From the NCBI GenBank assembly GCA_033030425.1, contig JAUFSD010000004.1, positions 310,001-374,000 of the forward strand: a stretch of DNA of 64,000 bases, given 5' to 3'. Shown here piece by piece: positions 10,199-54,800 of this stretch (its first letter is position 1; the number at the start of each line of letters is the position of its first letter). The position numbers and the translations under genes are program-made. A model generated the notes under the pieces. The model saw nothing but the letters and a program-made list of their open reading frames with translations, searched no databases and had not been told where the DNA came from. This stretch comes from Verpa conica. Lineage: Eukaryota; Ascomycota; Pezizomycetes; Pezizales; Morchellaceae.

Positions 10199-12177
10199 TT
10201 GGGAGGGATAGATGGTAGGGATTTCTAGAGTAGTTAGTTAGAGACGGATGGGTAGTAGGAGCGGAGGAATGTGGGAAATGATTGATTTTTTTTGATTTTT
10301 TTTGTTGCAGTCGGCCCGCACTTTTAAAGATTGCTTATGACTGTAAGAAGCCAGATACTGTTTGTGACTCGGGCAATGAATGTAACGCGCTTTTCTATTT
10401 ATTTGATCTATCATATTTGATATCGTTATTTTTTTTTGAGGGGATGGGTGTTTGGGGGGAAGGGTACTGTACTAGAAAATGGTTAGTATTGTTTGCTTTT
10501 GTACTGTATCTAACGAATGGTTCAAAACCGATGACACTCTCAGATAAGCTCTTGTTTCCTGGCTGTTGGTGATAACCGGAACCAATATTCTTCAACACAG
10601 CAGACACAAACCCCGAGTGATTTCTCATGAAACGGCACAAGTACCGATAGCATCCGAAGTCTTCCGCCTAGAGTCTCCGTGCATTACGCGACCTCACACG
10701 GCTGGGGAAACTCTAATTTCCCAGGGTGGGGGGAATTGTGGCTGGACGTGGGGGCCGAGCCTTGGGCTATGAATATACACGTAGTGTAAATACGATGTGG
10801 CCTCTGTGTGCTACTATAATGAAGGTTAGTCGTAAAGAGACCTAAGGACCCCTGAGAGGTATCAATGATTCCGCAAGATTACTAATTTTGTGGTAGTACT
10901 CGAGCTGCCGTTTTGTGTCTTTTGCCTAGCACCGCAAGAACGCAAAAATAGACCGGTACTTCTGATATCCTAGATTCTGTCTAGATGAGTATTTTCTAGA
11001 TATCATCCGGTAATCTTTTTGCCGGCGGCTTATGATGGCAATAGATATGTGAATATACCTAGATACTGATTCGTTAGTATCTTAGTAAGGAGATGTATCC
11101 GGAAACTTCCTATTCTACAGTTTAGGTACGTACTGCAGATCAATTACCATGTGGGGAGTTGTAACTAACTGTTTAGTTTTGTCTCGGAAACAGCCAATCA
11201 GCCAGATGACGTCGAGTGCTGAATGCTGACAGAAACGAAACGAGCAGCAATCCTTTGGATAAGGGGCATCATTTCCAATGTGGTATGCACTGCGTAGCAG
11301 CTATATCGGGGTCAGGCTGGAGAAAAAGAAAGCATTATGATGGAGATGTTAGGCATTGGGCGGGGAAAGGTAGATTATTAACGTTTTGTGGTACCTATGT
11401 CTCGGTCTCTCGCATAAAGGGCGGTGAATGGACTACGGTGCGGGAGGTGAAGGGGATCTATTACAAGCGCGTCTAACACGATTAGGGTTTGGCGAGCAGA
11501 GAGTGAAACGGCTGCTAGGGGTGGTGGTCTGAGGATATATGTAGGTATGCATCTCTGTTGGGACATACGGGAGATTGATGGTGACACCGGGCGCCACAGC
11601 TCATATCTCGTGCCACATGCTGACAAACGGCTAGCCTTTCTTCGTTAATCTAATGTAACATGGCATTCCTTTACCCGAGAGGAGTTTAATGAGGAGAGAA
11701 GAGAGGAAGAGGGTACAGAGGGGGCATAGAGCAGAATAGAATATAGAGCGGAGGGTACAGAGGAGGGCATAGAGCAGAATACAGCAGAGTACCTGTATCT
11801 AATTGGTTAAAGAGACAGCGCGGGGTGCATAGATACATGTACTCTCTCTCTTTTTTAGTCCTCTCCATCGTATCGATCGGTCAAGTGCTGCAGCCTCTCT
11901 ACAAGCACTGTTGCCTCAGCCTCAGCCGCATCCCCCTAACGCAACCCGGCCTTGGCTAGCATCCGTTCTCACGTCAACGACAACCCTGGGCTTCTACCTT
12001 TTGGCCCGTTTGTTTCCCTTTCGCGTTATAGCTTGTTTGCACACTACATGTAGGTGGGAATGTCGAAACAATACCACACATCCTTTGACGAGACGACGAG
12101 GTCTCCAATGTCTGTCTATCCCTTCCCCTCCTCTCCCTCCTGACAAGCATATTACACTTCTTTGTGCGCTTGGAACA
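10199..12177. other. Intergenic region and 5' leader of the next gene
   Basis: No supportable gene is seen. A small imperfect inverted pair (GATATCCTAGA ... TCTAGATATC) lies near 10963-11003. From about 11890 the strand becomes pyrimidine-rich, typical of a fungal core promoter and leader, and leads into the gene whose coding starts at 12178. Confidence 0.55.
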
Positions 12178-28995: not shown

Positions 28996-30450
28996 CTAAT
29001 TGCACTCAAAGATTCTTGTAGTGCTTACATTAATCCTGCTCCACCTCCTCCCAGTCACAAGGCTCCATAAAAACAGACCGGGCCAGTAGACATGATAAAG
29101 AAACCAAAATGGAAGCGGGTCCCAAACTTCAAACGTTGCATCTTTCCAGAACAGCACATGTATTGCAAAGTCCCTTAAGCTGGTGAAGAAAATTGTAATA
29201 TCAGACATCTGAAAAAGCGGTAGTAGTAAAAGGGAAACGAGGTCGTGCCCGATCCAGTAAAAGCCGGGAGTGGTAGCAACATCAGGAATGCAGACTTCCT
29301 TTGGGCAAGGGTCGAGTAAGCTGAGGTAGCACTCAGAAAGCTTTTCTGGGATACTATCGAAGAGTATAACGGCAGTGTGGGTCCGGGGGTTACACTCGAT
29401 GGGATATAGTTGGAGCTCCCGGTCGTCTTTCTTCTCTTTAACTATCAAGTCAAATGACAGCTGCCCGGTAACATTTCCATCTTCCAGACGTCTGGCGTAC
29501 TCCTTCGTGAATTCGAGCAACTTTTGGGAAATCTTGGAGTCCGCTGGTAATCCTTTATAGTGCATCAATAGTTCCGATGAAGCACAAGCGACAAATGCTG
29601 TGACATGGCCATCAACCACAACCCCATGAGTACAGAACTCATCACCTTCCACAAACTCTTGAAAAATCCAAGGCTTATCGGCCGTGATCTCCAACCCCTC
29701 AATCAACGCCGTAGTCTCTTCCAACGTCGGCCGAGGGTACAGGGTCATATCCGCTCGAGAAACATCATCCAACCACACCGACTTCAAAACATAATGCCTC
29801 GACTTTTTCCCCGCCAAAAACCCAAGGGCTTCTTCACGACTCTTGACCATCCTTGTTTCCGGAATATCAAGCCCAATCTCCGCCGTTTTCTCAATAAACA
29901 AGTTTTTTTCGTGCAGTGTTTTGCATGTTTCGGGTTCAGGCTGGAATACTTTGCAGGATGTTTCTTTTTCGATTTCGTGCTTTGCCAGTGCGTCCTCGAT
30001 TGTTGTTGCTACCCCGGAAACACAGACCCAAAGGTCTACCTTCTCTTTCTTGATTATTTCTACTAGGCGCCTTACGTATTCTTTCTTCTGCTCATCAGTG
30101 ACCGGTGTTGGCAGTTCGTAGTGCCGGGAAAGGGCCTTGGAGAAGCGTCCGCTAGATGGAATGTATGCTCGCTCGAAGTCGAGACCGATGACTTTATTTC
30201 CGGCTAGGTAAAAGGCTCGAGCGAGGGATAGGCCTTTTGTCATTGAGAGGGAGCTCACAAGGATTGTTTTCGGGGACGTCGAAGAGCGAGGTAGTGCTGG
30301 TGGCTCTGAGAGGAAGTATCTATAGAGGATGCATAGAGAAACTACAGTTGAAGTGATTGGTAAAAACACCAAGCTAAGGAGTATGAGAGAAAGGTTATTG
30401 AAAAGGTGTACCGCGAAAGAAGATTGCTGTGTCGATTTTTTATCTTCCAT
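28996..30450 (-). CDS. ATP-grasp ligase, MysC-like (4-deoxygadusol amino-acid ligase)
   Basis: Single exon, 484 aa, ATG at 30448-30450, TAG at 28996-28998. ATP-grasp features: the VLKSVW strand with the nucleotide-binding Lys (about 222), FQEFVEGDEFCTHG (263-276), a LSFDL strand, and the metal-binding Y-P-I-E-C-N-P-R-T segment (359-366). The ECNPRTHTA segment and the overall layout are those I know from MysC, which in cyanobacteria couples glycine to 4-deoxygadusol to give mycosporine-glycine. There is a long hydrophobic stretch near the N-terminus (about 20-46) and aromatic/hydrophobic segments near the C-terminus, so membrane association is likely. Its neighbours are the cyclase (same strand, 536 bp upstream of its start), methyltransferase and NRPS-like genes; this context supports the MysC call. 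The amino acid used cannot be read from sequence. Confidence 0.85.
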   Translation of the reverse strand: MEDKKSTQQSSFAVHLFNNLSLILLSLVFLPITSTVVSLCILYRYFLSEPPALPRSSTSPKTILVSSLSMTKGLSLARAFYLAGNKVIGLDFERAYIPSSGRFSKALSRHYELPTPVTDEQKKEYVRRLVEIIKKEKVDLWVCVSGVATTIEDALAKHEIEKETSCKVFQPEPETCKTLHEKNLFIEKTAEIGLDIPETRMVKSREEALGFLAGKKSRHYVLKSVWLDDVSRADMTLYPRPTLEETTALIEGLEITADKPWIFQEFVEGDEFCTHGVVVDGHVTAFVACASSELLMHYKGLPADSKISQKLLEFTKEYARRLEDGNVTGQLSFDLIVKEKKDDRELQLYPIECNPRTHTAVILFDSIPEKLSECYLSLLDPCPKEVCIPDVATTPGFYWIGHDLVSLLLLPLFQMSDITIFFTSLRDFAIHVLFWKDATFEVWDPLPFWFLYHVYWPGLFLWSLVTGRRWSRINVSTTRIFECN

Positions 30451-30986
30451 TTTTGTGAGAGAAATTTCAAGTAGTTAAGAGAAAAACAATATTAAGAAAG
30501 AGGCAGAGGAGGGCGGGAGCCTTTAAATATATGATGGTCTATCTTTTGGACTCCTCGACGTCATGCTACTTCTCTGGCAAACACTAAGGATTAGGCAAAT
30601 TCATTACTACAATATATGTGGGAGAAGGACCTTAGGCAACGAAACGGAGACAAGGCATTGATCGAACGGAAATTGCCGGTGTATCTACTTTGTTCTTTGA
30701 ACTGTTCTATGTCATAAGAATAGCTGTATAATACAGCTTGTTTAATATATAAATAGACAAACAGAAGCATTCTACTCAACATCACCTATTTCTATAAATA
30801 TCTAAGACATTTAGGTGGATAGAAGAAAACAAACTGTTACAGTGTTACAAGTCTGTATAAGTTTACTAGAAAAATTCCCTCCGCTAAGTCATCTTATGAA
30901 TTTCGTTTATCCCTAGGAAAAACTGATTCTACCAAAAATAGGAGAAAATAAATAGGCTTAATATTCTATGAGCTATACACACAGAC
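30451..30986. other. Spacer between ATP-grasp and cyclase genes
   Basis: 536 bp that must hold the ATP-grasp promoter and the 3' end of the cyclase, both on the minus strand. It is AT-rich; no distinct motif is recognised. Confidence 0.5.
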
Positions 30987-32404
30987 TCAATTTGGGAGCC
31001 CATTAGATTCCATCAAATGCACATCCGAGAGGCTAAAACGACCCATCTTCATGGCCGGAGAAGCAGCTGAAATGCGACCCTTAGAATCAGGTACGCCGGT
31101 ATCGGAGGCGTCGACAAATGCATCAAGGCCTTCTCCCTGTCTGGGGAATTCCTTAACTATCATTTTGTGTAATCTCAACGCTTCGTTCATATCATTAGCA
31201 GTTACATCATTGAGGAAGATGCACTGTCCCAAGGGCGCGGGAATAGCAGCACGGAGCTTGTTGTCGCGTGTCTTCAGGATGGCATCAGTGCCCTTGGCCA
31301 GAAGAACTTCGTCAAAGAGAGGATGGTCAATGGTCAACCCGGCTCTCGAGAAGAGGTGAAGAATCCTCATGTGGTCCTCCTCCGTGATGAGATTCTTCAT
31401 TCGTGCTAGTGTCGCAGAGTACGCCATATCGACAGAGATAGCATGACCGTGCCGCAGCGGGGTTTCGGGTGCAAGTTCGAGGGTTGGTGACCAAGTGTGG
31501 CCGTATGCAATAACACGGTCAAGCCCGATCTCGTGAAGGTTAGGGGTCTCGAGCTTCAACATGACGTGGATGCCTCTATGGTTGATTATATCGGCGGCCT
31601 TTTTGAGTTCTTCGGTGCTTCCGTCTGCGCGGCCGAACCTGTGGGATATCAATTTTTCGCAGTACTTGTCAAGAAGTTCGAAGGTTGTCAAGTCGGCACA
31701 GGTTGAAATCTTGACGAGTTCAGCGAAGCCGTTTCTGACTTGGGCTACAGGTAGGGTCCTGAGAAAGGTGAAGTCGAGGAAGGTGTGCATCGGAGCATGG
31801 TAAGCACCAAGCCTATTCTTATGTTTGCCATGATTTACAGCAACCTTAATCGATACCGAAGCGTCAATAAGACCGATAACTGTAGTCGGGACACGGATGA
31901 AGTTTGTTGTCCTGCGATAGGTTGCACACGCAAATCTAACAATGGTTGTTAGCAATTATTACTCGGGGTTAGGGTTAGTTACTAATTGTAACGCAAATAG
32001 AAAGGATCGGCGTTACTATTTACATACCCGGCAACATCGGTGATAAGCCCCCCACCAACTACAAGCAGAGGCTCCTTGCGGATGATACCGAAATCATTCA
32101 TGGCATCACAGATGGAAAGGAGAGTTGCCATGGTCTTTGCTTGTTCTCCGATCTTTGTCTTGTGGATGACCAATTGAATATCGTGAGCCTTGAAATACTG
32201 CTCCATCCGCTCACCATAAATTGCACAGACATTAATGTCTGTCACGGCCAGACAACGGCCCCATTTTTTGTACATATCCGCAAGCTGGGGGTTCTTGATG
32301 TCAAAAACGCCGTCAAGGAATGTGAAATCATAGGTGATTTTTTCGTAACCCTCGACATGGAAACCAGAGGGTGTCTCTGAAACGGTAGCCGTGAGATCAG
32401 ACAT
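30987..32404 (-). CDS. DHQS-like sugar phosphate cyclase (desmethyl-4-deoxygadusol synthase type, MysA-like)
   Basis: Model: complement(join(30987..31935, 32028..32404)), 441 aa, one 92-nt intron. Dehydroquinate-synthase fold: NAD-binding VVGGGLITDVAGFA at the splice junction (about 115-128), RVPTTVIGLIDASVSIK (about 140-156), NHGKHKNRLGAYHAP, and metal ligands E198 (AELVK), H272 (GHTWSP) and H288/H290 (RHGHAIS). NHGKHKNR and GHTWSP are the forms I associate with the EEVS/DDGS branch, which uses sedoheptulose 7-phosphate, rather than shikimate-pathway DHQS; in fungi that activity is also usually part of the AROM pentafunctional protein, not a stand-alone enzyme. Linkage to MysB- and MysC-like genes favours desmethyl-4-deoxygadusol synthase over 2-epi-5-epi-valiolone synthase. 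The first committed step of mycosporine synthesis is therefore the best guess. The intron contains a two-copy TTAGGG-type motif. Confidence 0.87.
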
Positions 32405-33909
32405 AATTTAAGATGAGAGATTGGGGGGGGGATATTGCAGTGGCTGCTTGTTGAAGACAGGATAAGGCAATAGGAAACGTTGTGTTGAAACTTATTCCTG
32501 TAGTTTCTAGTGGGAGAGAGTGTGTTCTAGATGACGGGAAGAGACTCGGCTTCTTATCTTGTTTCCTTGACGGGCATAAATTTGCTGTCGGTGAGCGTTT
32601 TTTTGTCTCATGACACCGTGATGTGTTTCACAACCCTCTCTCCTCGGAAGTTTCTCAAGAAAGGATACATGCGTCGGAGGAGGTATGATTCTAAAAAGTT
32701 TTTGTTAAAAGGCCGCTAAAATGACGTGATCGTATTTACGTAGGCGTTCTCCCTTTTCTTACTACTATTCCAAGCAGCTGTTTGTCTCTCCAACACAACG
32801 GCTATGTCGTGCTAGATTCCTTTGGCATAGCATGTTTCTCCAACAGAAATCTAGCACTATTTAGGCCCAGCAGTGTTTGTATGGGTTACATAAATTAAGG
32901 TAGCCTACATAATTTTCTGGTCCTATGTTACCTTAGTACGACTTATGCGGTGTCTTGAGTATATCGCCCATCTGATGGCGTGGGGAGGGACCGGCACGGT
33001 ATGTGGGTCTCCAGAAGATTGAACGATTCCTAAGTATAGCACGATCCCACTATAAGAATGGGGTTAGGAATTAAACAGAGTGTTCTTATAAACGGGTATT
33101 CTTACTTAACTGAGAAGTTTTAAAGCAAATATCCTAACGGATAAGGTTTAGAAAGATGCGTTTTAGAGCTTTCTATTAAGCATATTTATAAATAGTATTC
33201 TTATATGGATAGTATTGTGTCGAGAGGATAGTGTGGGTCTCTTTACCTGCCAAGTTTTACCTCACGTCATAAGATTGAGCCTTTTAGATCCCTCGGCAAC
33301 CACGGGGAGAGGGGGGGGGGGTTAGCCGTAATTTTCCTGCTGTGTTGGGCCCTTGCGTAACCAATTACTTCCGCCGCGGAGCTTCTACCAAACATATCTC
33401 ACTTAGGGGATCTGGGAGCTTGTGATTGGTGTTGACAGCTCGATGCTGGTGGAGTTAAGTGCTTGGGTAGGGTTTGTCAAGTGGGTACCTTAACATACCC
33501 TAACTCATTACAAGCCAATTAGAAGTCATAAACCACTCCGGTTTAATTTTGGTGGGTCGTACCATTACCCCTACGTGAACAATCTCAAAGGGAGCCGACA
33601 TACAAAAAGAAATGACTCCATATCGATATGCCGTGGGCAGGTTCAACTAGCAGATTTTCGGGAGCCCTCTTATCGAACGGATGTAATTCCGCAAAGTATT
33701 AGGCGGTTGGCCATCTCATCTAGATAAAGAGGGGGCTAGGCGATCCGTGTGGTTGTGATCATATGTCATGATCTTGGGATTAAGACCTCTAAAAAAAAAG
33801 TGGAAAGTTAAATAAATCACATTGGTTACGAATAACTCCAGGTCTTCTTCATATCCTACCTAATTGTAAGAAATCAAGAGCTTCCATTTTATAAACCTAC
33901 AAGAAAAAA
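32405..33909. other. Divergent promoter region of the cyclase and O-methyltransferase genes
   Basis: 1.5 kb between divergently read genes, the natural place for shared control of the pathway. It is AT-rich and unique, with poly-G near 33309 and no ORF of substance. No specific binding site is claimed. Confidence 0.5.
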
Positions 33910-34985
33910 ATGACTGGGTTCACGAGCAAGATCAGCTACGCTAAGCAACACGATGTTTTTGTAAGTAAATCTTTCGTACAGAGGAGAAGCACAAGTGATT
34001 TAAGCTACAAGACCGTGATAATTAGTAAGAGTGTAGGATTCTGACAAAGTGGGTACAATAGTTCGACGACGGCCGCGAAATTGAGCTACTCCAGAGGATT
34101 TTCTCACTTCCCGCACAAAAGCTTAATGGCCTCCGTAACAACCCCTCTGCGATTCTGGCAGCAATTGATGAATTCGCTACAGAGAAATATCTCATGAACA
34201 TTGGGGAAATGAAGGGTTCATCATCTCACCTCTTTACTACTCATCAATTCACTTGCATGAGTTGCTAACCTCTGCGAGGATAATCCAATAGGAAAAATTA
34301 TTACTGGACTCATCACTGAACATTGTCCAAAAACAATGGTTGAGCTCGGAGGTTATGTCGGATATAGTACCATACTCTTCGGTTCGCACCTACGCGATAC
34401 ATGGGAACGATCAGAGACGGCACATGAACCTAGATATTACTGCCTAGAAATGAACCCCCTCTTTGCGGCTATAATCATGGCTTTCGTTGACCTTGCTGGT
34501 CTTTCTCATATCGTCAAAGTATTAATCGGGCCTTCTTCTACATCATTGAAACGTCTACATCATGAAGGCACCATAAAAACGATAGACCTTTTGTTTTTAG
34601 ATCATTTTAAGCCTGCTTATGTCAGTGACTTGAAGCTCTGTGAGAGCTTGGGGTTCATCGTTCCGGGGAGTGTTCTGGCTGCTGATAACGTGATCAAGCC
34701 GGGGAATCCGCCGTATCTGAGATATGTGAGGATGAGTGTGGAGGAGAAGAAAGAAACGGAGAAGAAGGCTTTGGAAGATATGGTAAAAGAAGGGATTAAA
34801 TTGGTTGATGGTCGAGTTGAGCCAAGGGGAAATCCTGAGTTGGTTTACGAAAGTAGGATGGTAGAGAGCTATGAGCCTACAGGAATTCAGGTACGACTAT
34901 TTAAAGAAATTTGGCCTTTAGTTAATACTAAGTTGTGCTAACTTTGATATAGGATGCGGTCGAGATTACAGCTTGCATTAAGTAG
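33910..34985 (+). CDS. COMT-like SAM-dependent O-methyltransferase (MysB-like)
   Basis: Model: join(33910..33960, 34062..34215, 34292..34890, 34953..34985), 278 aa. The three introns are 101, 76 and 62 nt; the second has an unusual GTTCAT donor. Catechol-O-methyltransferase signature parts in order are EKYLMNIGEMKG, the SAM-binding VELGGYVGYS, YCLEMNP (ribose-binding acidic residue), LLFLDHFKPAYVSDL (the D of the metal site), AADNVIKPGNPPYL and a C-terminal TGIQDAVEIT strand carried by the 33-nt last exon. The length is close to that of cyanobacterial MysB, which methylates desmethyl-4-deoxygadusol to 4-deoxygadusol, and that role fits the neighbours. From sequence alone it could be any small catechol-type methyltransferase; location makes the pathway role likely. 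It faces the NRPS-like gene tail to tail. Confidence 0.85.
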
Positions 34986-35635
34986 TTAGGACTTTTATCT
35001 TTTGTTATTTATTTAGTTTATGCGTATGGCTGAAGAGGTTGTCTGCAATGATCAGCCAAGTAAATATATGTATCTAATATCTCCTTACGGTCGATTCGAG
35101 CCCAGAATATCGACTGTAGAATCATTACAATCTTGAGTACAGAGCCAATGGGTGGATATAATCGGTATAGATGGGTTTAATACGGTATTGTAAGTAGTTC
35201 AAACCTAAATCAACTATATTACTAGATTCCCCGGCAAGTACAGTAGTCTTCTAGCTTTAATTCTGTATCTTTAACCATGCGGCGCCACGCTTTTCTATAC
35301 TATATCCTTGCTCTAAAACTCGCCATTGTCTATTTATAGTGTATAATAATTCAACTGAATCAATTGATTAACAATATCTATTAAACAATGCCCGTTGAGG
35401 GGAGACCATATTCCGACGGATAAAGGAAATGTGCTCTGTTGAGGAACCTTGAAAAGCGAGGTAAAAAATCATCGAAAATAATAATAATCAAACAAAAGTA
35501 CAGTAGAAAAGTCTTCTATGTGGTGATGATGGGGCGATCCTTTGAATGAGGGCGCTTGATCGTCGACTGCTGAAACTCCTGATAGGTCCTTCGTTATAAG
35601 ATCCTTCAGGATCACAGAAGCCTTTGTTAAGCCGA
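34986..35635. other. Convergent 3' intergenic spacer
   Basis: 650 bp between the 3' ends of the methyltransferase (plus) and NRPS-like (minus) genes. AT-rich; no gene or motif is recognised beyond presumed 3' ends. Confidence 0.5.
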
Positions 35636-38600
35636 CTAAGCCCTAATAAATCCACACTGCACCCAGTACTTCCAAATACTCTGCACATACTCCCTATGTA
35701 ATTCCCAACCCTCTTTTCCAAGTGCTTTCGAGAACGCTACCATATTTCTCGTCTCAAACTCGAAACTTACCTTGTGGTCTGGACCGTTAGTTCCATAGCC
35801 GCTACAGGCTTCTTGCCCATACTGTAATACAATTAGGATCGTTTAAGGAAGATGAAGGGAAGAGGAAGGGAAGAATATTAGCATCTAAAACCGAGAATAA
35901 TAAGGATACCTTACCTTTGCTTCCCATAGCCCCAACAGTTTCTGGCTCGGATTTGCCGTTCCAGTATCCCCAATTTCGGCCAACCTTTTGACCCATTTAC
36001 TAGGTGTGACCCTGTCAAATTTCACATCACCAAGCTCCTTTATCCAATCCAGTACAGTACTCCAATTAATCGAAGTATTTGTATTCACTACATGGAATAC
36101 TGGGTCTCCTACGTGATTGTGAAGATTGTTGCTCAGTGCGATATCCAATATAACTTCAGCTGCTAGATCGACTGGAAGCCATGATAATTTCTAGGATGCT
36201 ACTAGTTAGTAAAACCAATCAATCAAAAGAATTATATATAGTGCCAGAAGTCTTAAAAGGGCATCAGGTATGGGAGAAATTAGAAGCTTTAGTAGCTGTG
36301 ATTTATTTGGCAAGCACTATGTCAGTACTATGCTCTGGTCAATAGAGTAGCTCACCAGAACAAATACCTACCAAAGCGCCTAATTCTCCCATAGCTTTAC
36401 CCCTTTAAGGTTTCTGGCACCATATATGTGGGGGTTGTGATCACTTCGTTTAATTCCGGAAGACACCCGACGACATTCGCGCTAGCAAACATCAGAGGCC
36501 ATGCCTCAGTCTCGTTCCACACTCCGTTCACTGTGTCCCCACATAATTGACCAATTCTCAAGACAGCCGCTCTACCGTTTATTTTCTGGCATATTTTCTC
36601 TGCGACCCACTTCGAACGACTGTATCCGAGTGGCGCAGCAGTACATGGATCATTCGTGAACATTTCCTTGACCGTTGTGGAGGGTTTGACGTCACCGAGG
36701 ACTGCTGCAGTAGAAGAACAAAAGTAGAGCCGGGCCCAATTACGTGAGTCTAGTGTTAGATTAATAAGATTGCGGGTTCCTATTGCTTTATATTAGAGTT
36801 GGACCATTTCTTATAGCCCGGCGAGAGCGCTGCACACCTGCAATGTGGTCTTTTTCAAAGCTCTCAAAGGATGCAACAAAATTGACAGCCCAAGCTGCCT
36901 GTAAAAGCATCAAATCGTGAGCTAAACTACATCCTAGATTAATGATAGTAAGGTACTTACATGAATAACCACTGTTACTTCCTCTTTTAATTGGCTATAA
37001 ATCATCTTGCCCAAGCCTAAATAACAATCCCCTAGTTCCGCTGCAAGAGCTATCACCTCAGGACCATCTCCAAAACTTGGGAGTTTACGATCCTGTAGGC
37101 TCTTCTCAACACGATAACGCGCATGTGCATGGTCCTTAGCACGACAAAGACACACAACCTTTATAACCTCTTTTCTAGTATGACATAGTTTATTAAGTAT
37201 GTGGGCACCCAAGGACCCGGTTGTGCCAGTAAGAATCTAGGTAGATTTTAATCGTGAGATTTGAGTAATAGCGAGTAATAAACTTACGATCACGTGTTTA
37301 CTCCTGGTACTATCTGCCCCCGCCACGCTCTGGTTTCCCAGATCACAGATCCTAATGCTGTCGACATATTTTTGCACCAAGTGAAGCATTAGCTGCTCTT
37401 GTTGGCTGGTACTACTCTCATTCACCTCTCCACATGTTGTAATAAACTTTACAAGCCTATAACAATTAGCATATGTTTTAAAACCTGTAAAGAGAATGAA
37501 GGATGGAAGCAGTAAACTCCTAGAACAAAACTAAGAATTAAGTTCTATTGTTATTCTTACCCCTCGATAGTTCTCTGCTCAAAAACCACATTCAATGGTA
37601 GTGGCTTCTTGATTTCCAAGGCCTATTTAAAAATTAGTCATAGATATCCAATTAATGTCTGATGCTCCCCCAAACCTTGACTAATCGATTGCGGATTTGC
37701 ACAACCATAGTTGAATCGACCCCAGCTATAAATAGATCAGTGTCGTGATTAATCACCTTATTAGTGACATCTCTGATAATTGCATGAACTATATTCCTCA
37801 CAACCCGGACATCCGTAATTTCCGTTCTTTTCCTAGACGTATCACACCCATATGCCTGCTGTATATCTTTCCAAAACATCTCACCAACAGCTCCCCGCAT
37901 TACGGTACCCTTACTATTTTTCGGGGGTTCCTCGTCAGCGCAGATGACAAGAACCATCTCCTCCCTGATCTCCATATGTGTCTTTTTGTTAACTTCCTTG
38001 ATATACTCCTTAATTTCTCCAAGTGGTATTCGATGGGCTTTCATAAATAGTAATAGTCCTGGAAATGGTCTATTATTCCCGAAAACTATCGCATCGCGAA
38101 TGGGGTCATATTTCTTAAAGGCGTCTTCGATATGGGTAGGATCGAATTTCTTCCCCTTTGAAAGTACAATTATAGCGTCGTTACGGCCGTCATATCTATA
38201 TGCATTTTTAATAGTTGGGTGCGGTACGAATAGATCTCCTGTTGCATAAGATCCATCTAGGCGATTGGGTTTTGCCTTACGAGTGATTAGCTATGACTAC
38301 AGGTGACCAAGGGAGAACATACGATCTGTGGCCACCCTGGAAGAACAATAAGTTCGAACCGTCCACAGCTATTTTCTTGTGGCTCAAAGCGTAATGCGGT
38401 ACATGTAGGTGAAACTCGGAGGTAATCCCAGTTTGGATCTGTGGTGAAATCGCGGTAGGACGACATAAGGACTAAATGATCCACGTGAGCTTATTAGCTG
38501 ACCCTCCAACGCAATACACAGTGGTTTTATACATCCACATTCACTGCTCCCGAACCTTGAGATAAGCTTAATCCCATTTTTGACCAACGCTGTGCCCACA

Positions 38601-39901
38601 TCTACTTTCAGTGGTGCTCCACCAACCCCCACTAAATCCATACCTACCATGCTCTGCAAAACCCTTTCATTCTCCATACACACCTCTAGCACATAGGGGA
38701 CAGCCGTGAACAATTTGACTGGTAGCATTTCTCGTTCTGCCGCCTGAATCACTTTCAGAATATGGTCACTCGTTACCGAAACAGACGGCGGGTACAACCA
38801 CAGCACAGAGGATGACATCAACGACCGCATTAAATCTGCAGTACCACCATGATAAAGTGGTGTAATGGTAAATGCTGCAGTCGGAGATTTAGGCGGGAGA
38901 TATGGAAGATAGGAGGTTGCAACGGCATGGGTCTGTAGGATGGGCTTCGGGAGACCCGAGGTCCCTGAGGTGTGGTGAATGTAGGCTACCGTTGAGCCAG
39001 TGATTTTGCTCGGTGTCGGGTATCGTTTAATTTTCGATGGTCTGGGAACCTCAAGAAGAACATGGTCCCTACAGGTCCCAGGCTTGGAAGAGGTAGAAAG
39101 CTTAGTAAAAGATTGGGAGTGAAATATATGTGTCGACTTTGTGGTTTTGAGGAGATGTGAGATTTCATTCTCGGTGCACTGAGGTCTAGATTCAATTTGA
39201 TCAACTTCCAAGATAATCACAAATTTGAGAATACTTACGCAATCAATACCACACAATAGCCAATCCGGATAAATGCAAAAAAATTCATGAGAAGTTCGAG
39301 GGAGCTCTCGGATAATATGGCTACACAAGGTGGGTCTTTCTTGATAGTCTCTTCCGAGACAGCTGGAACAATTTCTTCTGATACTAGTCTATTGGCCAGT
39401 TCATTCGAAATTTGAGATAGATCCGCAAAGGCTTCAAATATACCTATTACTATCGCTCAACAACCTAGAATCATAGATATACTCACAGAAAACTTTACAG
39501 CCCCATTCTTTCCCTAGGTCAGGCCCAGGAATTGGCATCGCTACCGCTGGTAATCCTGGATCGGAATTTGCACGTTCATCGAGGAGCTGAATTATTGTAT
39601 CTATTCCATGTGGCTTGATGGAATTGACTTTTTGTGCATGATCGAGAGTTGATGCGAAGTACGGAAGGACTGAAGGATCTTCTGAACCCTGGCCTGAGGG
39701 TATCCCGGCCACATCACCGTCCATAACTGATATAGAGAGCAATTTTCGACTTTGAGCTCTGTTAGCTAACACATCCGTATCACGAGTATCTCTGAAATGG
39801 CCAGAGAGGAACCTTATACTCTCCAATGGGATCATTCTACAAACAAACTCACATATTCTAAATTGAACGGTAATCTTGAGCAAATTTTCGTTAAGAGACA
39901 T
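35636..39901 (-). CDS. NRPS-like enzyme: adenylation - thiolation - thioester reductase
   Basis: Twelve exons: complement(join(35636..35821, 35915..36190, 36445..36779, 36838..36898, 36961..37236, 37288..37456, 37561..37622, 37676..38275, 38323..38471, 38533..39185, 39239..39443, 39487..39901)), 1128 aa; an in-frame ATG at 39722-39724 would give 1069 aa, nearer the family's usual length. The A domain has TSGTSGLPK (about 279-287), FGSSECG (418-424), YATGDLF (about 484-490) and GRNDAIIVLSKGKKF. The carrier domain has DLFIAGVDST with the phosphopantetheine Ser at about 662. The reductase domain has the NADP-binding TGTTGSLGAHI (about 754), SSTAAVLG and the Y-x3-K pair YSRSK (916-920). All key residues are present, so it should be active. 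This class activates a carboxylic acid and releases it as an aldehyde or alcohol. The substrate is unknown; context suggests a mycosporine or its amino acid. Intron 10 (254 nt, GTGATC donor) is the least certain join. Confidence 0.85.
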
Positions 39902-40172
39902 TAAAGCACCGTAGAGCTCGGAGTAAACGGATAGGTCGGCGGGATGTGATAAATTTCCATTTAGGGGACGTGAACCACAGCAATCGATAATGGAGCTCGA
40001 GTTGTAGCTCTACACCCCGCGCCATCAGGGCTAGGTTTCTAAGAATAGGTGATCTGCACTAGCCTCTCTTGGTAGCCACTCCCGACCCGAGCCGATTATT
40101 AAAGTTGGACACTCCTGTTTCAGAGAGTGACAGGTTGATGAGAAAACGAATTCTATCGAGAAGAGGCATCGT

Positions 40173-40364
40173 CCTACGAGATTCGACCCGCTGTAGCCGG
40201 GGTTAATATGCATTTTTGCGCACTTTTCAACAAAAAACAAAACAGGTTTACTCTGTTTCAGTACAAGTATGTATCTTTCTTGTCCTAGTGCCAGGAATTT
40301 TCGTGGTTGATAACTGTTCCAGCACCTGTTAATGCATATTAGCCCCGGGTCGAATCTCGTAAGG
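40173..40364. repeat. Imperfect inverted repeat in the divergent promoter
   Basis: Left arm 40173-40214 and right arm 40330-40364 pair over ACGAGATTCGACCCG and GGGTTAATATGCATT-like blocks; the left arm carries about 9 extra bases between them. The loop is about 115 nt. It could be a MITE relic or a palindromic control region. Confidence 0.6.
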
Positions 40365-40463
40365 TAGTACGGTATGGGTTACGTTACGCCATGGGGATAC
40401 CGAGGTACTAACCCCGCTATACTCTTAAGGGGTCAATCAGCCTACACCCCCTTCACCAGTCTT

Positions 40464-40469
40464 TATATA
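40464..40469 (+). promoter_or_regulatory. TATA box of the aldo-keto reductase gene
   Basis: TATATA lies 62 bp before the ATG, followed by a CT-rich stretch with repeated TTCATC, a usual fungal core promoter layout. Confidence 0.6.
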
Positions 40470-40530
40470 CCATTTCATCTCTTCATCTCTTTAATTTCAT
40501 CAACTTCATCAATCCAAATACCTATTCAAA

Positions 40531-41547
40531 ATGGCTAAGCTTTCGTTTACGGATGTTCTCCCACTTCCAGCCTCACCCCTTACGATCCCTCATATTGGTT
40601 TTGGAGTCTTCCGATCGGACGGAGAAACCTGCAAAGCTTCCTGTCTTACTGCTCTTAAGCTCGGTTATCGCCACATTGATACAGCTCAATACTACGAGAA
40701 TGAAATCCAAGTAGGCGAGGCTGTTCGTGAGAGTGGGCTGCCTCGTGAAGATGTATATGTTACAACAAAAATCATGAGCCCTGCTGGAGGCCCAGAGAAA
40801 ACCCTAGAGGCACTGAGGGAAAGTGTAAAGAAGATCGGGTTGGGCTATGTGGATTTATTCCTAATCCACAGTCCTAGCAGTGGGAAAAACGGAAGGAAGG
40901 AGTTGTGGCAGGCGTTAGAGGAGCTAAAGAAGGAGGGAGGAGCGAAAAGTATTGGTGTTAGTAATTTGTGAGTTTTCCTGCCCACCCGCCTTGACTCTAT
41001 GCCAATTTAACATTGGGAGTTCTACAGCGGGGTGAAGCATCTAGAGCAACTTAAGGAGTACTCAGAAACTATCCCGGCAGTAAACCAGATCGAGGTTTGT
41101 ACCTATTTCCCGCGGTTCTCTTTAAAAATAAATTTCTTGGCTTACCTGTTCAAGCTCCACCCCTGGTGCCAACAAACCGAGGTCGTTGACTATTGCAAAA
41201 AAGAAGGCATTGTTGTAGAGGTTTGCCCCCTCTCCCTATATCTCTTTTATACTATTCTAACAACAGTTAAGGCCTACGCACCTTTAGTTCGGGCCCAAAA
41301 GAACGATGATCCAACTCTTGTTTCCATTGCCAAAGCGCACAATGTTTCAGTCACCCAAGTGCTCGTGCGCTGGTCACTCCAGCGGGGATTTGTCCCACTT
41401 CCTAAGAGTGACAACCCAGACAGAATCAAGAAGAACGTAGAAGTATATGATTTCGAACTTACGGAGGAGGATATGAAGAAAATTGATGATAATGGCCTTC
41501 CAGGTGGTGAAGGAGCAATTTGCCCGTATCTTGCGGATTGTCCGTAA
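40531..41547 (+). CDS. Aldo-keto reductase, 281 aa
   Basis: Model: join(40531..40967, 41028..41094, 41155..41220, 41272..41547). Introns are 60, 60 and 51 nt; two use GTTTGT/GTTTGC donors. AKR fold with the full catalytic tetrad: D50 and Y55 in HIDTAQYYENE, K80 in VTTKIM, H113 in LIHSP. Near the C-terminus, PLPKSDNPDRIKKN is the NADP(H)-binding loop of the family. The length suits a compact fungal AKR. It would reduce an aldehyde or ketone to an alcohol using NADPH in the cytosol. It sits head to head with the NRPS-like gene, so the two probably share control; reducing an aldehyde released by that enzyme is a reasonable but untested role. A general housekeeping AKR next to the cluster by chance is the alternative. 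Confidence 0.9.
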
Positions 41548-45332: not shown

Positions 45333-47322
45333 ATGAGCATATCCACACCCCACCCACGAGAAAGTGGTGAGGGCCCAGCGGAGGAAACAAAGGGAAACAG
45401 TCTTTTTTCGCCTAGTACACGACTCTTTGTGTCGTTTTGGCTGTTTGGGGCTCTTATTGCTATGCAATTTAGGTGAGCCTAGTTCTGCTGGCTGATGAGA
45501 TTTAGAGGCAGTACATGTAGTTGGGATTGATGATGCCTAACTCGAAAGCATAGTGTTGTTGTTACAGCTGCGAACGAGTAAGTCCAAAAACCCCTCATCT
45601 TCTTTCACATCCTGCTACCAGTTTCTAAGCAAGTTCTTCAACAGCCTAGTAGCAGACAGAGCCCCTACAGGTCTAATACTCTTCGCCTACACTCTCCCTT
45701 CTGTGCTAGTCCGTACACTTGTTCCCTTCATCAACTTTCCCGACATTCGCACTTATATCCCTTCCAACCTCCGTCGAGACAGTCCCAGGCGCCTCCTTAG
45801 CCTCTACAGAGCACGAGCGAATGGAGAGGAGCCTAATAAGTTCTACTCTACAACACCAGACCCATCATTGTCTCTCACAGCATCTTCTAGAGGGGGCACA
45901 GCCTACAGGCAGGCGGAGAGGAGCAACTCACTAACGAAACATGTGAATTATCCCCTGAGACTGGCTATTTGCATTTTTAGCAGCTTTTTTGGACTACAGC
46001 TACTGGCATGGGCGGACCTTGTGGGGGTTAGGTTATTAGGCATTGGAATGGCGAGTTTGAGCAGTAATCTAGGGGATATGTTTGTTCTCTCTTACTATTT
46101 TCACTCTAATTTATTTAATAAGAGTCTACTAATACTTTACAGGTCTTTCCTGCAGCTCTGTTCTCGCTACCCCAAGACTATAGGTTCTGTATCTGCTTTT
46201 GGTGGATACACAACTGGTGGCGGATCAGCGGCTTTGGTGGGGGCTTTTATCTATACCCTTAGCACCTCAACATTGGGAGTCTCACCAAATGCGACAATCT
46301 CTGTTATTGGACTGCTCCCAGTGACTTTGCTATTCACATACTCATTTCTTCTCCCGCACCCGGCTGACGCAGGACAAGTTGAAGTGGTTGAAGGCACGGA
46401 TGAAATGAGAGAAGAGGGGATATCAGGGTTATCTGTTAAAGCGAAGTTGAAGATTACAAGGCCCATGTTTTGGAGATATATGGCACCCTTAGCAGCAATT
46501 ATGCTTGTCGAGAACTCCATCGTCCAGGTTTGCCTTTGTATTTCTCCCCTCTAATACCAGAACTAATATCATTTTCAGGGTGTTCTACCAACACTTCTTT
46601 TCTACCTCCCTTTCCTGCCATCAGCTCACTTCGCGGGCCTCCTCAACTCTATATTTCATACAACTCGTGACTTCTACCCCATTTATGTGACAGTTTATCA
46701 ATTTTCGGTCTTCGTCGGTCGCTCGTCCATCTCTTTGTTCCGACTACCAAACTCCCCAGTGACCTCATGGGGGCTTGTTATGATTGAGTTAGTGATCCTA
46801 TTATTCCAGATGAGCGAGAGCCTCTCTATGGTGGTACAGAACGATAGTACTAGTGTATTATATGGACCACTTGTAGTGCTATTTTTAGCCAGTTGTATGG
46901 GGCTATGCGGAGGGCTGGCTTTCAGTGATATATACTGGAAGGTGAATAATAGTATCCTACCAAGAGGAGTCTGGGACGCGTTAGAAATAGCACGTAGTGA
47001 GCACGATAGCCCAGGAAATGGTGGAAGCAGATATATGAGAGTTAGAACCATGGATGAACTCGACGATGTCAGCTTTCACACACAGCAAAGGGTGGCTATC
47101 CAAGAACTTCAGCATGAAGAGGACAACATCGAAGGACGGGAAGAAGGAAGAGAGAACGCAGAGAAAGAGATGGCCATGAGAGAGTTTTTGTTGAGTGCGA
47201 TTGCTCCCCCCGATACTTTTGCGATCCTATTAGCGAGTATAGTGGGTATGAAGATTCAGCCGGCCCTTTGTGGGGTACAGGTGGCGAGGGGGAGGAATTT
47301 GTGTCGGAAGACTAGTGTGTAG
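45333..47322 (+). CDS. BTN1: Battenin/CLN3 family protein Btn1
   Basis: Model: join(45333..45472, 45554..45577, 45630..46079, 46143..46527, 46579..47322), 580 aa. Battenin landmarks in order: FWLFGALIAMQF, VVVTAAND carried by a 24-nt micro-exon (compare the VVMLSAAHD segment of CLN3), a lumenal/variable stretch, ASLSSNLGDMSFLQL spanning exon 3/4, a GGYTTGGGSAALVGA glycine helix, and the QGVLPTLLF and YQFSVFVGRSS segments. The C-terminal end is REFLLSAIAPPDTFAIL ... PALCGVQ. Several hydrophobic helices fit a multi-pass vacuolar membrane protein; yeast Btn1 affects vacuolar pH and basic amino acid transport. The acidic insertion (about residues 500-535) makes it longer than yeast homologues. 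Intron 3 (63 nt) has no stop and keeps frame if retained. Confidence 0.88.
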
Positions 47323-51800: not shown

Positions 51801-54800
51801 ATGACCTCTGCCGCAGCATTCCTAAGCGGCGCTTCATCGCTCCGGCGAAACCGTTTTTCAGACATTCCTCCGAGCATTGATATCCCCGTGTCAGCCGGCG
51901 ACGAGGACGACGATGACGAAACCGCCGTGGTCGAGGTAGACCCAGATTCGCTACCTGAGGACCCTACAGAGCTGTGTACTCTTCTTGAGAATGAGAGGAG
52001 TCCGAGACAGTTTTGGATGTATATCGCGCTAGCCTATGCGAAGCATGAGAAGGTCGATATTGCGATTGAGATTATGACGAAGGGGCTACACGCCCGGGCA
52101 AACGACACTGCTGAGAAACTACCAATGCTGAACTTGCTGACGTGGCTGTACCTGCAGAGGAGTCGAGAGGCAGTGAGAAACGTTGCTGGTATGAATTGAA
52201 ACCCTCCCCCCCTTTTCTCACGGCGTGTTCAGCTAGCTAACGTGCAATACGGCATCTACAGAAGGTGGCCTCATATCAGAGGCAAAGACGAAAGACCACT
52301 ACCTTCAACTCGCTACTGGAGCCCTCAATGAATCCTCACGTCTTGACCCCTCTTCAATGATCTCCGCGCTCGCCCGCGGTGTTTACTCCGTCTTCAAAGC
52401 GTCCGTTTCTAGCTCAACAGAAAAGGGTCACCACCTGGACACTGCGACAAAGATCTTCGATGACGCAATTCGGTCCTCTAGATCCGGAAACATGCTAGCC
52501 ACCATGGGCAAAGCGCGAGTCCTGTACGCAAGGAAGCGATTCGACAAGGCGCTGGAATGCTACCAGGAAGTACTACTAAAGAGACCCGATATGGATCCAG
52601 ACCCAAGACTCGGAATCGGCTTGTGTTTCTGGAATCTCGGGCATAAAGATGACGCAGCAATTGCCTGGGAGCGTGCGTTGGAGCTGGATCCAGATTCAAA
52701 AGTTGCACATATCCTTTTGGCGCTGTACCACTTGAATATCACTGCAAGCATGTCTGAGTATGACCCGGCGTTCATGGAAAACTACCGTCAGGTCATTGAC
52801 CATACTCAAAAGGCGTACAAACTTGATAAGAACTTCCCTGCGGCGTGTACCACTTTTTCAAGTCACTTTTTCTCAAAGAAGGGGTATGCACAGTGCGAGG
52901 TTCTTGCTAAGAAGGCGATTGAGTACAGTGACGTTGCGGCAGTCACTGCAGACGGATGGTATCTTTTGGGTAGGAAATGGCATGCGGAGGGTGAATGGGA
53001 GAAAGCATTAACGTACTATCGACGAAGTGATACCATGCGAGAAGGATGGCTCCCAGCAAAATTAGGAGTTGGGCAAGTCCAAGTTCTCATGAAAGGTACA
53101 TTATGCCCCTCCTATGCCCACAATATCTTTGACCAAAATCATCTAACATTACCCAGATATCTCATCTGCGAAGTACAGCTTTGAAGCTATCGTCCAAAGC
53201 TACCCCAAATGTCTTGAAGCAAAAACCATCCTGGGTACCCTCTACGCTCACGAAGTCCTCCAATCAATCCCCCGCACTGGCTTCGCCGCCTCGAAAGAGG
53301 ACGTAACACCCCTCCACAAGCGTGCCATCGTCCTCCTCGAAAGCGTCCGCGCCACCTGGAAAGGCGACAAGAAGACAGACCCAACCCGCGAAGCACTACT
53401 ACTTACCCTAGCCCGCCTGTACGAGAATGACCAACCCGAGAGGGCACTTTCATGTCTCTCTGCAGTTGAGGAAATCTATACCCAACTCAAGGAAACTGAC
53501 GAGGAAACCATGGTCCCCCTCCAGCTTCTTAACAATATGGCAACTTTCTACTGGCACCAGGAGAAATATGACCTTGCCCGGCAGCTCTACCAGACAGCTC
53601 TTAACTCAATTCCAGAGCTCAAGGAGAAGGATGAGACTGCGGATACAGACGCTTTAGCTACTACTTTAACCTACAACCTTGCTCGCTGCGAGGAAGCCGC
53701 CGGTAACCTTGAGGAGGCCACAAAGCAGTACGAACAGCTTCTCGCTCGGCATGACGACTATGTTGATGCAAATATGCGTCTTGCGTACATGGCCCTCCGT
53801 CGTGGCGGTGATGAAGGTCCAAAGCGGATTCAAAAGCTCATGCAAACCGACGGGAACAATCTCGAAGTACGTGCATTATATGGATGGTATCTTGGCAAGC
53901 AGAAACGCAAGACCGCTATCAACATCGCCGAGGATCCTGAACAGCGCCATTATAAGCACTCATTGCAACACCATGACAAGCATGACCGTTACTCCTTGAC
54001 GGGAATGGGAAATCTATACCTCCTCACTGCAAGGGAAATGAGGAGGGATTCAGAGGCGGATAAGGAGAAGCGACGGAAGACGTACGAGAAGGCAGTTGAG
54101 TTCTTTGATAAGGCTCTCCAATTAGACCCGAAGAATGCATATGCGGCGCAGGGCGTGGCGATTGCTATGGTGGAAGATAGGAAGGATTTGAAGAGTGCCG
54201 TGCAGGTGTTTACTAAGGTGAAGGAAACATTGGCGAAAGATGCCCATGCAATTGTGAACTTGGGCCATTGTTTGGCGGGGTTAGAACAGTGGGGGAGAGC
54301 TATCGAGAACGTGAGTCTTTTTTGCCCTTCGTGGATTCCAATCTTATTCCTTGCTTGTCTATTTAATGTCCGTCCCCTTTGATTTGGTGGCGTTACTGGG
54401 AAACGCGATACCTTTATCCCGGAACCCCGAGCATTTACCTTTACCCTGCATCAAATCTATTCCGACCCGCAATCGTTCGTTTTCTACTTCTATTTACCTT
54501 CACGCAAGATACCCCTGCTCTCATATATGATAAACTCATCTCCTACCCTACCTTACTCATCGCCATGGAAATTGGAACCGGTGCTTAGAAGCACCGACCT
54601 TATCACCCGATATTCTCGTCTTATTATCCTATTCAGCGTTACTTTGCTATAGCCTGTTTCCTCCTCAATACCCTATAACTTGCATTGCATATACCCCAAC
54701 CGCGCGCGACCTAACCCTTGTTCACGTTGTCACGCCTGCTCACGCAGAACCGTTACTCCCCCTTGTTTCGTATGCGGCATATACACCACCTTTCATTTCT

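Follow-up and report, generated by a model that had tools for sequence, protein, structure and literature searches.

A predicted mycosporine gene cluster with an adjoining A-T-R reductase gene in Verpa conica

Introduction

Does a fungal mycosporine cluster carry its own enzymes for an amino-alcohol side chain? The question is raised by five genes in a 64,000-nucleotide stretch of the genome of the ascomycete Verpa conica (contig JAUFSD010000004.1, positions 310,001 to 374,000), hereafter the window, in which all coordinates are given. The source assembly comprises 45.8 Mb in 25 contigs. The genes specify an ATP-grasp ligase, a cyclase, a COMT-like O-methyltransferase (OMT), a nonribosomal peptide synthetase (NRPS)-like protein of adenylation-thiolation-reductase (A-T-R) architecture and an aldo-keto reductase (AKR). 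Judged from sequence comparisons, the first three very probably encode the core pathway to a mycosporine, a fungal UV sunscreen. For the locus as a whole the explanation that we favour, by a modest measure, is a mycosporine cluster of a morel-like fungus of the Pezizales in which the A-T-R enzyme and the AKR make an amino alcohol. The three-gene fungal core is already known; what is new is its close packing with genes for an A-T-R reductase and an AKR.

Gene organization

The five genes occupy positions 28996–41547 and are intact, the gene models having only GT..AG introns and no internal stop codons. In strand order -,-,+,-,+ they specify the ATP-grasp ligase, a MysC/ATPG homologue (28996–30450, minus strand; 484 amino acids, a single open frame in one exon), the DDGS/MysA-like cyclase (30987–32404, minus; 441 amino acids, two exons), the MysB/OMT-like methyltransferase (33910–34985, plus; 278 amino acids, four exons at 33910–33960, 34062–34215, 34292–34890 and 34953–34985), the A-T-R NRPS-like reductase (35636–39724, minus; 1,065 amino acids, twelve exons) and the AKR (40531–41547, plus; 281 amino acids, four exons). 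DDGS, OMT and ATPG lie in one locus (28996–34985); the cyclase and methyltransferase genes diverge from a 1,505-bp gap (32405–33909), which is a candidate shared promoter region. Measured from where the methyltransferase gene ends, the NRPS-like gene is 0.65 kb and the AKR gene 5.5 kb away, and among the five genes no further open reading frame of at least 120 amino acids was found, apart from frames overlapping the five.

A first-pass annotation, made from the letters of the window, had proposed these five families, and they are all present; the outer limits that it gave coincide exactly with the outermost stop codon on either side. It had also described the orientation as alternating, which is incorrect, the first two genes being in tandem.

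The splice sites of the OMT and NRPS-like genes were set by comparison with homologues. The Pfam, homologue, paralogue, motif and first bacterial-locus runs were made with preliminary models that were longer by 10 residues (OMT) and 11 residues (NRPS-like), while the cyclase tree and the count of gene order in bacteria were run on the refined gene models.

The mycosporine core

The cyclase shows a Pfam match to DHQ_synthase (110 bits). Compared with the sequences of solved structures it scored 493 bits to the Anabaena variabilis entry 5TPR and 247 bits to 4P53, with no dehydroquinate (DHQ) synthase exceeding 112 bits. We take 5TPR, whose entry label is 3-dehydroquinate synthase, to be the A. 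variabilis DDGS, and 4P53, labelled cyclase, is presumably the valiolone synthase ValA. In a tree built with 24 actinobacterial proteins, 5TPR, ValA, one Chitinophaga protein and two DHQ synthases, the Verpa cyclase groups with 5TPR and the 24 actinobacterial MysA proteins (node support 0.60), and the node adding ValA has a support of 1.0. At the 64 alignment columns where 25 MysA proteins all agree and ValA departs from them, it carries the MysA letter 53 times, the ValA letter twice and another letter nine times. The protein also bears a stretch that nearly matches the marker described in section 2.1 of PMC10057719 for distinguishing fungal DDGS from DHQS. Elsewhere in the genome a DHQ-synthase match was found at a single place, on another contig. 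On its scores and its position in the tree the cyclase is assigned as a predicted DDGS/MysA and not a valiolone synthase; grouping with the valiolone synthases, which the first-pass annotation had named as the outcome that would speak against it, did not occur. A telomere-like GGGGTTAGGGTTAG stretch lies at 31965–31978, within the one intron that interrupts the cyclase gene.

Bacterial counterparts were sought by scanning bacterial and archaeal contigs, one genome per species, with the cyclase as query. This revealed 25 loci, 24 of them actinobacterial (Williamsia, Mycobacterium, Mycolicibacterium, Pseudonocardia and Marmoricola) with 52–57% identity in the best segment, and one in Chitinophaga with 29%; the absence of cyanobacteria from the list means nothing, because the word patterns of the scan derive from one protein. 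Homologues of all three core proteins, in the order mysA-mysB-mysC, were present in 19 loci, all actinobacterial, a likeness to bacterial mysABC operons; four loci possessed A and C only and two possessed A only, one of these being a 4-kb contig and the other the Chitinophaga locus. The Verpa ATP-grasp protein matches the product in the MysC position in 23 of the 25 loci (best E 1e-67). For the methyltransferase, 19 of the 25 loci have a match (E <= 1e-3) between mysA and mysC, the likeness to bacterial mysB being weak (20–29% identity in 10 loci).

The methyltransferase itself gives Pfam matches to Methyltransf_24 (35 bits) and Methyltransf_3 (32 bits), is 48% identical to the OMT half of the OMT-ATPG gene model P0173, and is a predicted MysB/OMT homologue. 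In P0173, from Oleoguttula sp. CCFEE 6159, the methyltransferase is followed by an ATP-grasp ligase within one gene model, which is either a true fusion or the result of merged neighbours.

Protein searches covered the ATP-grasp, NRPS-like and AKR proteins, for which the best 120 of 1,055, 743 and 7,997 matches, respectively, were compared. The ATP-grasp protein is 43–73% identical to its best 120 homologues, those named being fungal. Its score against PF02655 (ATP-grasp_3) is 21.2 bits, below the cut-off of 23.2, and a sequence search of solved structures gave a single weak match, to a dehydrogenase. Its AlphaFold2 model (pLDDT 89.5, from an alignment of 40 sequences) has PylC, carbamoyl phosphate synthetase and GAR synthetase as top Foldseek matches. 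Hydropathy analysis revealed hydrophobic segments close to both ends, and 29 residues are at least 97% identical in 63 proteins (the window's, 39 homologues and 23 bacterial proteins). Sequence and model together identify it as a probable MysC homologue with an ATP-grasp fold, and its agreement with the bacterial MysC position bears out the family assigned in the first-pass annotation. A distant second ATP-grasp match, with 27% identity, is present in the same genome at G000:C21:1218705-1219559.

The same three core enzymes form the MYC cluster of another fungus, Phaffia rhodozyma. According to PMC10057719, where deletion and heterologous expression are described, the DDGS, OMT and ATPG of Phaffia make 4-deoxygadusol and a compound called mycosporine-glutaminol; PMC5103461 is an earlier report of the same three-gene cluster. 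The Phaffia DDGS/OMT pair is likewise divergent, with a gap of 1,568 bp (PMC10057719, section 2.1) against 1,505 bp here. The Phaffia ATPG gene stands beside OMT, whereas here it is downstream of DDGS on the same strand. The Phaffia cluster as described in that paper includes neither an NRPS-like nor an AKR gene, both of which are present in Verpa, and the paper's account of clusters free of NRPS-type genes does not describe this locus, in which an A-T-R gene follows 0.65 kb past OMT and may belong to the pathway.

The NRPS-like A-T-R enzyme

The Pfam domain order of the NRPS-like protein is AMP-binding, AMP-binding_C_3, PP-binding and NAD_binding_4. No thioesterase domain was matched in Pfam, the C-terminus being the NAD_binding_4 reductase. 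The carrier serine, the reductase (R) domain tyrosine and lysine, and the aspartates and arginine of what we take to be the A7 and A8 motifs of the adenylation (A) domain are invariant in the best 120 homologues; the lysine of the presumed A10 motif is retained in 119 of them. Its closest relatives include Morchella sextelata protein P0001 (67% identity over 75% of the length), and none of the 17 candidate paralogues scored in the Verpa genome is more than 43% identical. With catalytic residues intact in all three domains, the A-T-R enzyme is a predicted carboxylic acid reductase, which would work with ATP and NADPH. The architecture is common to the fungal carboxylic acid reductases (NcCAR and the clades of PMC9605436), while the A domain here has a motif of its own, PLYHGG[IV]AD in the homologues, with Thr in place of I/V in the Verpa protein. 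The text of PMC9605436 arranges 84 fungal A-T-R enzymes in seven clades (I–VII), two of them without a characterised member.

By sequence, the R domain is closest to those of the Neurospora enzyme NcCAR (8aep; 112–114 bits) and MxaA (4u7w). For the structural comparison the Ascodesmis homologue P0002 (pLDDT 81.8) was used in place of the Verpa protein. Its R domain matches NcCAR and MxaA; its A domain gave ties among acyl-, aryl- and amino-acid enzymes and is therefore uninformative on the substrate.

One A-domain position offers a hint about the substrate. Amino-acid-activating A domains bind the alpha-amino group through an aspartate, which we take to be Asp235 of GrsA. The Verpa enzyme has a histidine aligned to the aspartate of the FDGS stretch of LgrA; the alignment to a proline ligase is shifted by one, placing glycine and not histidine opposite the aspartate. 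Histidine occupies the Asp235 position in all 119 homologues that were readable there among the best 120, and three additional A-T-R loci in the Verpa genome, with alignments that reach this position, carry it as well. Replacement of the anchoring aspartate suggests that the A-T-R enzyme acts once the amino acid is in place, or takes a substrate other than a free amino acid. The histidine may point to a substrate with its nitrogen already engaged and fits a mycosporine-amino acid, a lead that falls short of proof.

At 254 nt, intron 10 is longer than the other introns of the NRPS-like gene (47–104 nt), and it contains an imperfect inverted repeat (36234–36427) with 28-nt arms that are 86% complementary and an overlapping 23-nt pair at 78%. 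A whole-genome search found no second copy of the insert. Decay of the gene through this insertion was considered and rejected: the reading frame is kept across the splice, and the product lines up with its homologues.

The aldo-keto reductase

The AKR possesses an Aldo_ket_red domain (179 bits) and is 83% identical to Morchella snyderi protein P0241. Asp50, Tyr55, Lys80 and His113, presumably the catalytic tetrad of the AKR family, are conserved in all 121 sequences (the Verpa protein and its best 120 matches). In a tree of these best 120 matches it falls in a clade of 11 members, made up of Pezizomycetes and three further sequences.

Linkage in other fungi

Two genes were scored as sharing a contig when the contig size was identical within the same species, using the longest contig per match and comparing named species by eye; the resulting counts cover the three pairs that these three genes of the set can form. 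The NRPS-like and ATP-grasp genes share a contig in five of the eight species common to both lists, namely Tuber aestivum (406 kb), Sphaerosporella brunnea (195 kb), Caeruleum heppii, Candelina mexicana and Pycnora praestabilis, and are apart in Lambiella insularis, Sclerophora amabilis and Circinaria calcarea, the last with contigs of 11–14 kb. For a genome taken as 30 Mb, two genes placed at random would fall on the contig in question with a probability of 0.7–3.2% in each of the five species. The NRPS-like and AKR genes are together in four of five species (two Xylographa, Ascochyta rabiei and Caeruleum heppii) and apart in Paraphoma. The ATP-grasp and AKR genes are together in five of six (Tuber magnatum, two Xylographa, Piccolia ochrophora and Caeruleum heppii), the pair being apart in Chaenotheca, where the AKR contig is only 3 kb.

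Locus tags could be read for eight pairs, which are 2–41 genes apart. AKR and NRPS-like genes are separated by two tags in X. soralifera and X. trunciseda and by 13 in A. rabiei; ATP-grasp and AKR genes are 17, 18, 21 and 41 genes apart, and the NRPS-like and ATP-grasp genes of Candelina 33. In other fungi, then, the five genes are rarely adjacent and often on the same contig, as judged from three of the five and, for OMT-ATPG, from P0173. The first-pass annotation had looked to co-occurrence in relatives: sharing of contigs by three of the genes agrees with this in part, and the spacing is often loose. The 12.5-kb packing in Verpa, against distances of up to 41 genes elsewhere, looks as if the group had been tightened here or loosened elsewhere.

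Proposed pathway and alternatives

In the pathway that we propose, the DDGS would convert sedoheptulose 7-phosphate to desmethyl-4-deoxygadusol, the methyltransferase would turn this into 4-deoxygadusol, and the ATP-grasp enzyme would couple an amino acid to the latter, yielding an oxo-mycosporine absorbing at 310 nm. 4-Deoxygadusol has no carboxyl group; the carboxyl of the amino acid is therefore the sole target within the pathway for a reductase. Most likely the A-T-R enzyme would adenylate this carboxyl, load the product onto its carrier domain and release it reductively as an aldehyde, which the AKR, or the R domain acting a second time, might reduce to the alcohol. The end product would be an amino-alcohol mycosporine such as one bearing glutaminol or serinol. 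We infer the last two steps and their order.

The components of this proposal differ in strength. Membership of the A-T-R enzyme in the mycosporine pathway is reasonably probable, and its conversion of a carboxyl toward an alcohol is evenly poised. That it is the missing carboxyl reductase of fungal mycosporines, working after the ligase and building the amino-alcohol side chain with the AKR, is put forward tentatively, at something below an even chance; partnership of this AKR with the A-T-R enzyme is more doubtful still. As regards the first-pass annotation, the MysA/B/C-like core stands through the placement of the cyclase and the ATP-grasp protein, and its amino-alcohol product from a single five-gene pathway is chemically sensible, as a proposal.

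Glutaminol and glutamicol mycosporines are known from fungi (PMC3083659, PMC10057719). No assignment of an enzyme to their amino-alcohol step was found in the literature searched, most subscription journals lying outside that search; the accessible text of PMC11195213, PMC11433233 and PMC12230676 yielded nothing on fungal mycosporine enzymes, and PMC7826186 concerns green algae. NRPS-like genes do occur in the predicted mycosporine-like clusters described in PMC8403587, which credits them with homologues in most Hypoxylaceae genomes and treats them in a paragraph on A-T-R enzymes; like the Verpa locus these clusters include an NRPS-like gene, its A-T-R type being implied and not stated in a comparison that draws on the description only.

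Several observations weigh against an amino alcohol made by the A-T-R enzyme and the AKR. PMC10057719 describes fungal clusters as consisting of the three core genes, and reports that the trio alone gave mycosporine-glutaminol in S. cerevisiae and, with a glucoside in addition, in a Phaffia strain lacking the cluster. The product was assigned from retention time, co-migration and absorption spectrum, the main text containing no mass-spectrometry wording; if the glutaminol form made by three genes in yeast is real, the A-T-R gene of a cluster is unneeded there. Mycosporine-glutaminol has also been described from terrestrial cyanobacteria (PMC3083659), so that a fungal enzyme is not a prerequisite for the amino alcohol. 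Among the best 120 AKR matches a separate clade of cluster-linked AKRs was looked for in the tree and not found, the eight contig-sharing copies not grouping by themselves; this makes the AKR probably an ancient gene passed on by vertical descent, and it may be only a neighbour of the cluster. Finally, linked genes elsewhere are up to 41 genes apart, and their spacing, given a shared contig, is just slightly tighter than expected by chance (combined P ~0.02, assuming one gene per 3 kb).

The strongest alternative is that the mycosporine cluster consists of the three core genes only, the A-T-R and AKR genes having been kept nearby by mesosynteny and making something else. It is a serious possibility, if well short of an even one. 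It draws on the reported sufficiency of three genes in Phaffia and yeast (PMC10057719), on separations of 13–41 genes in six of the eight pairs with readable tags, and on an AKR list that is rich in Aspergillus species, none of which appears among the best 120 matches of the longer NRPS-like and ATP-grasp lists, which does not amount to absence. Set against this are the short distances in Verpa, with no other non-overlapping frame of at least 120 amino acids between these genes and OMT, the AKR and NRPS-like genes just two tags apart in two Xylographa species, and the Sphaerosporella (195 kb) and Tuber aestivum (406 kb) contigs that carry both NRPS-like and ATP-grasp genes.

A reversed order, in which the A-T-R enzyme first makes the amino alcohol from a free amino acid for the ATP-grasp enzyme to attach, is unlikely, even though the ligase is described as incorporating glutaminol (PMC10057719) and clade I fungal A-T-R enzymes reduce amino acids (PMC9605436). 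The histidine found in place of the amino-anchoring aspartate, in every readable homologue among those compared, speaks against this order and fits reduction after attachment, as in our proposed pathway.

It is very improbable that the NRPS-like gene is a counterpart of MysE that forms an imino-mycosporine by attaching a second amino acid, fungi producing only aminocyclohexenones according to PMC10057719. The gene does adjoin homologues of mysABC. Its product ends in a reductase domain, however, whereas the cyanobacterial MysE ends in a thioesterase, and where bacteria have MysD or MysE as second-amino-acid enzymes the Verpa locus has an A-T-R reductase and an AKR. The remaining alternative, a valiolone synthase in a locus making gadusol or an aminocyclitol, could appeal to ValA as the second-best solved structure and to the relatedness and common substrate of the DDGS and valiolone synthase families, but is effectively ruled out by a bit score to DDGS twice that to ValA, by the tree and by the MysB and MysC homologues alongside.

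Flanking genes and repeats

To the right of the cluster lie a CLN3 (battenin-type) gene (45541–47322) and a TPR-repeat gene (52237–54382), the latter, by eye, presumably CTR9-like, as well as a weak Pfam match to MBOAT_2. Pfam matched none of four further flanking open reading frames, of which three lie left and one right of the cluster. Positions 7576–10237 hold long tandem repeats, their units being of 30, 18 and other lengths, where several frames are open on both strands; the plus-strand frame is rich in GPKTPT, and the AT skew reaches 0.67 in 8001–10000.

Implications

The amino-alcohol side chains of fungal mycosporines have long been known, and the Verpa cluster makes the question of their enzyme directly testable. 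If the proposal is true, the family marked by PLYHGG[IVT]AD would predict which fungi make amino-alcohol mycosporines, and the cluster may provide a sequence marker for predicting which sunscreens are made by morels, truffles, lichens and black yeasts.

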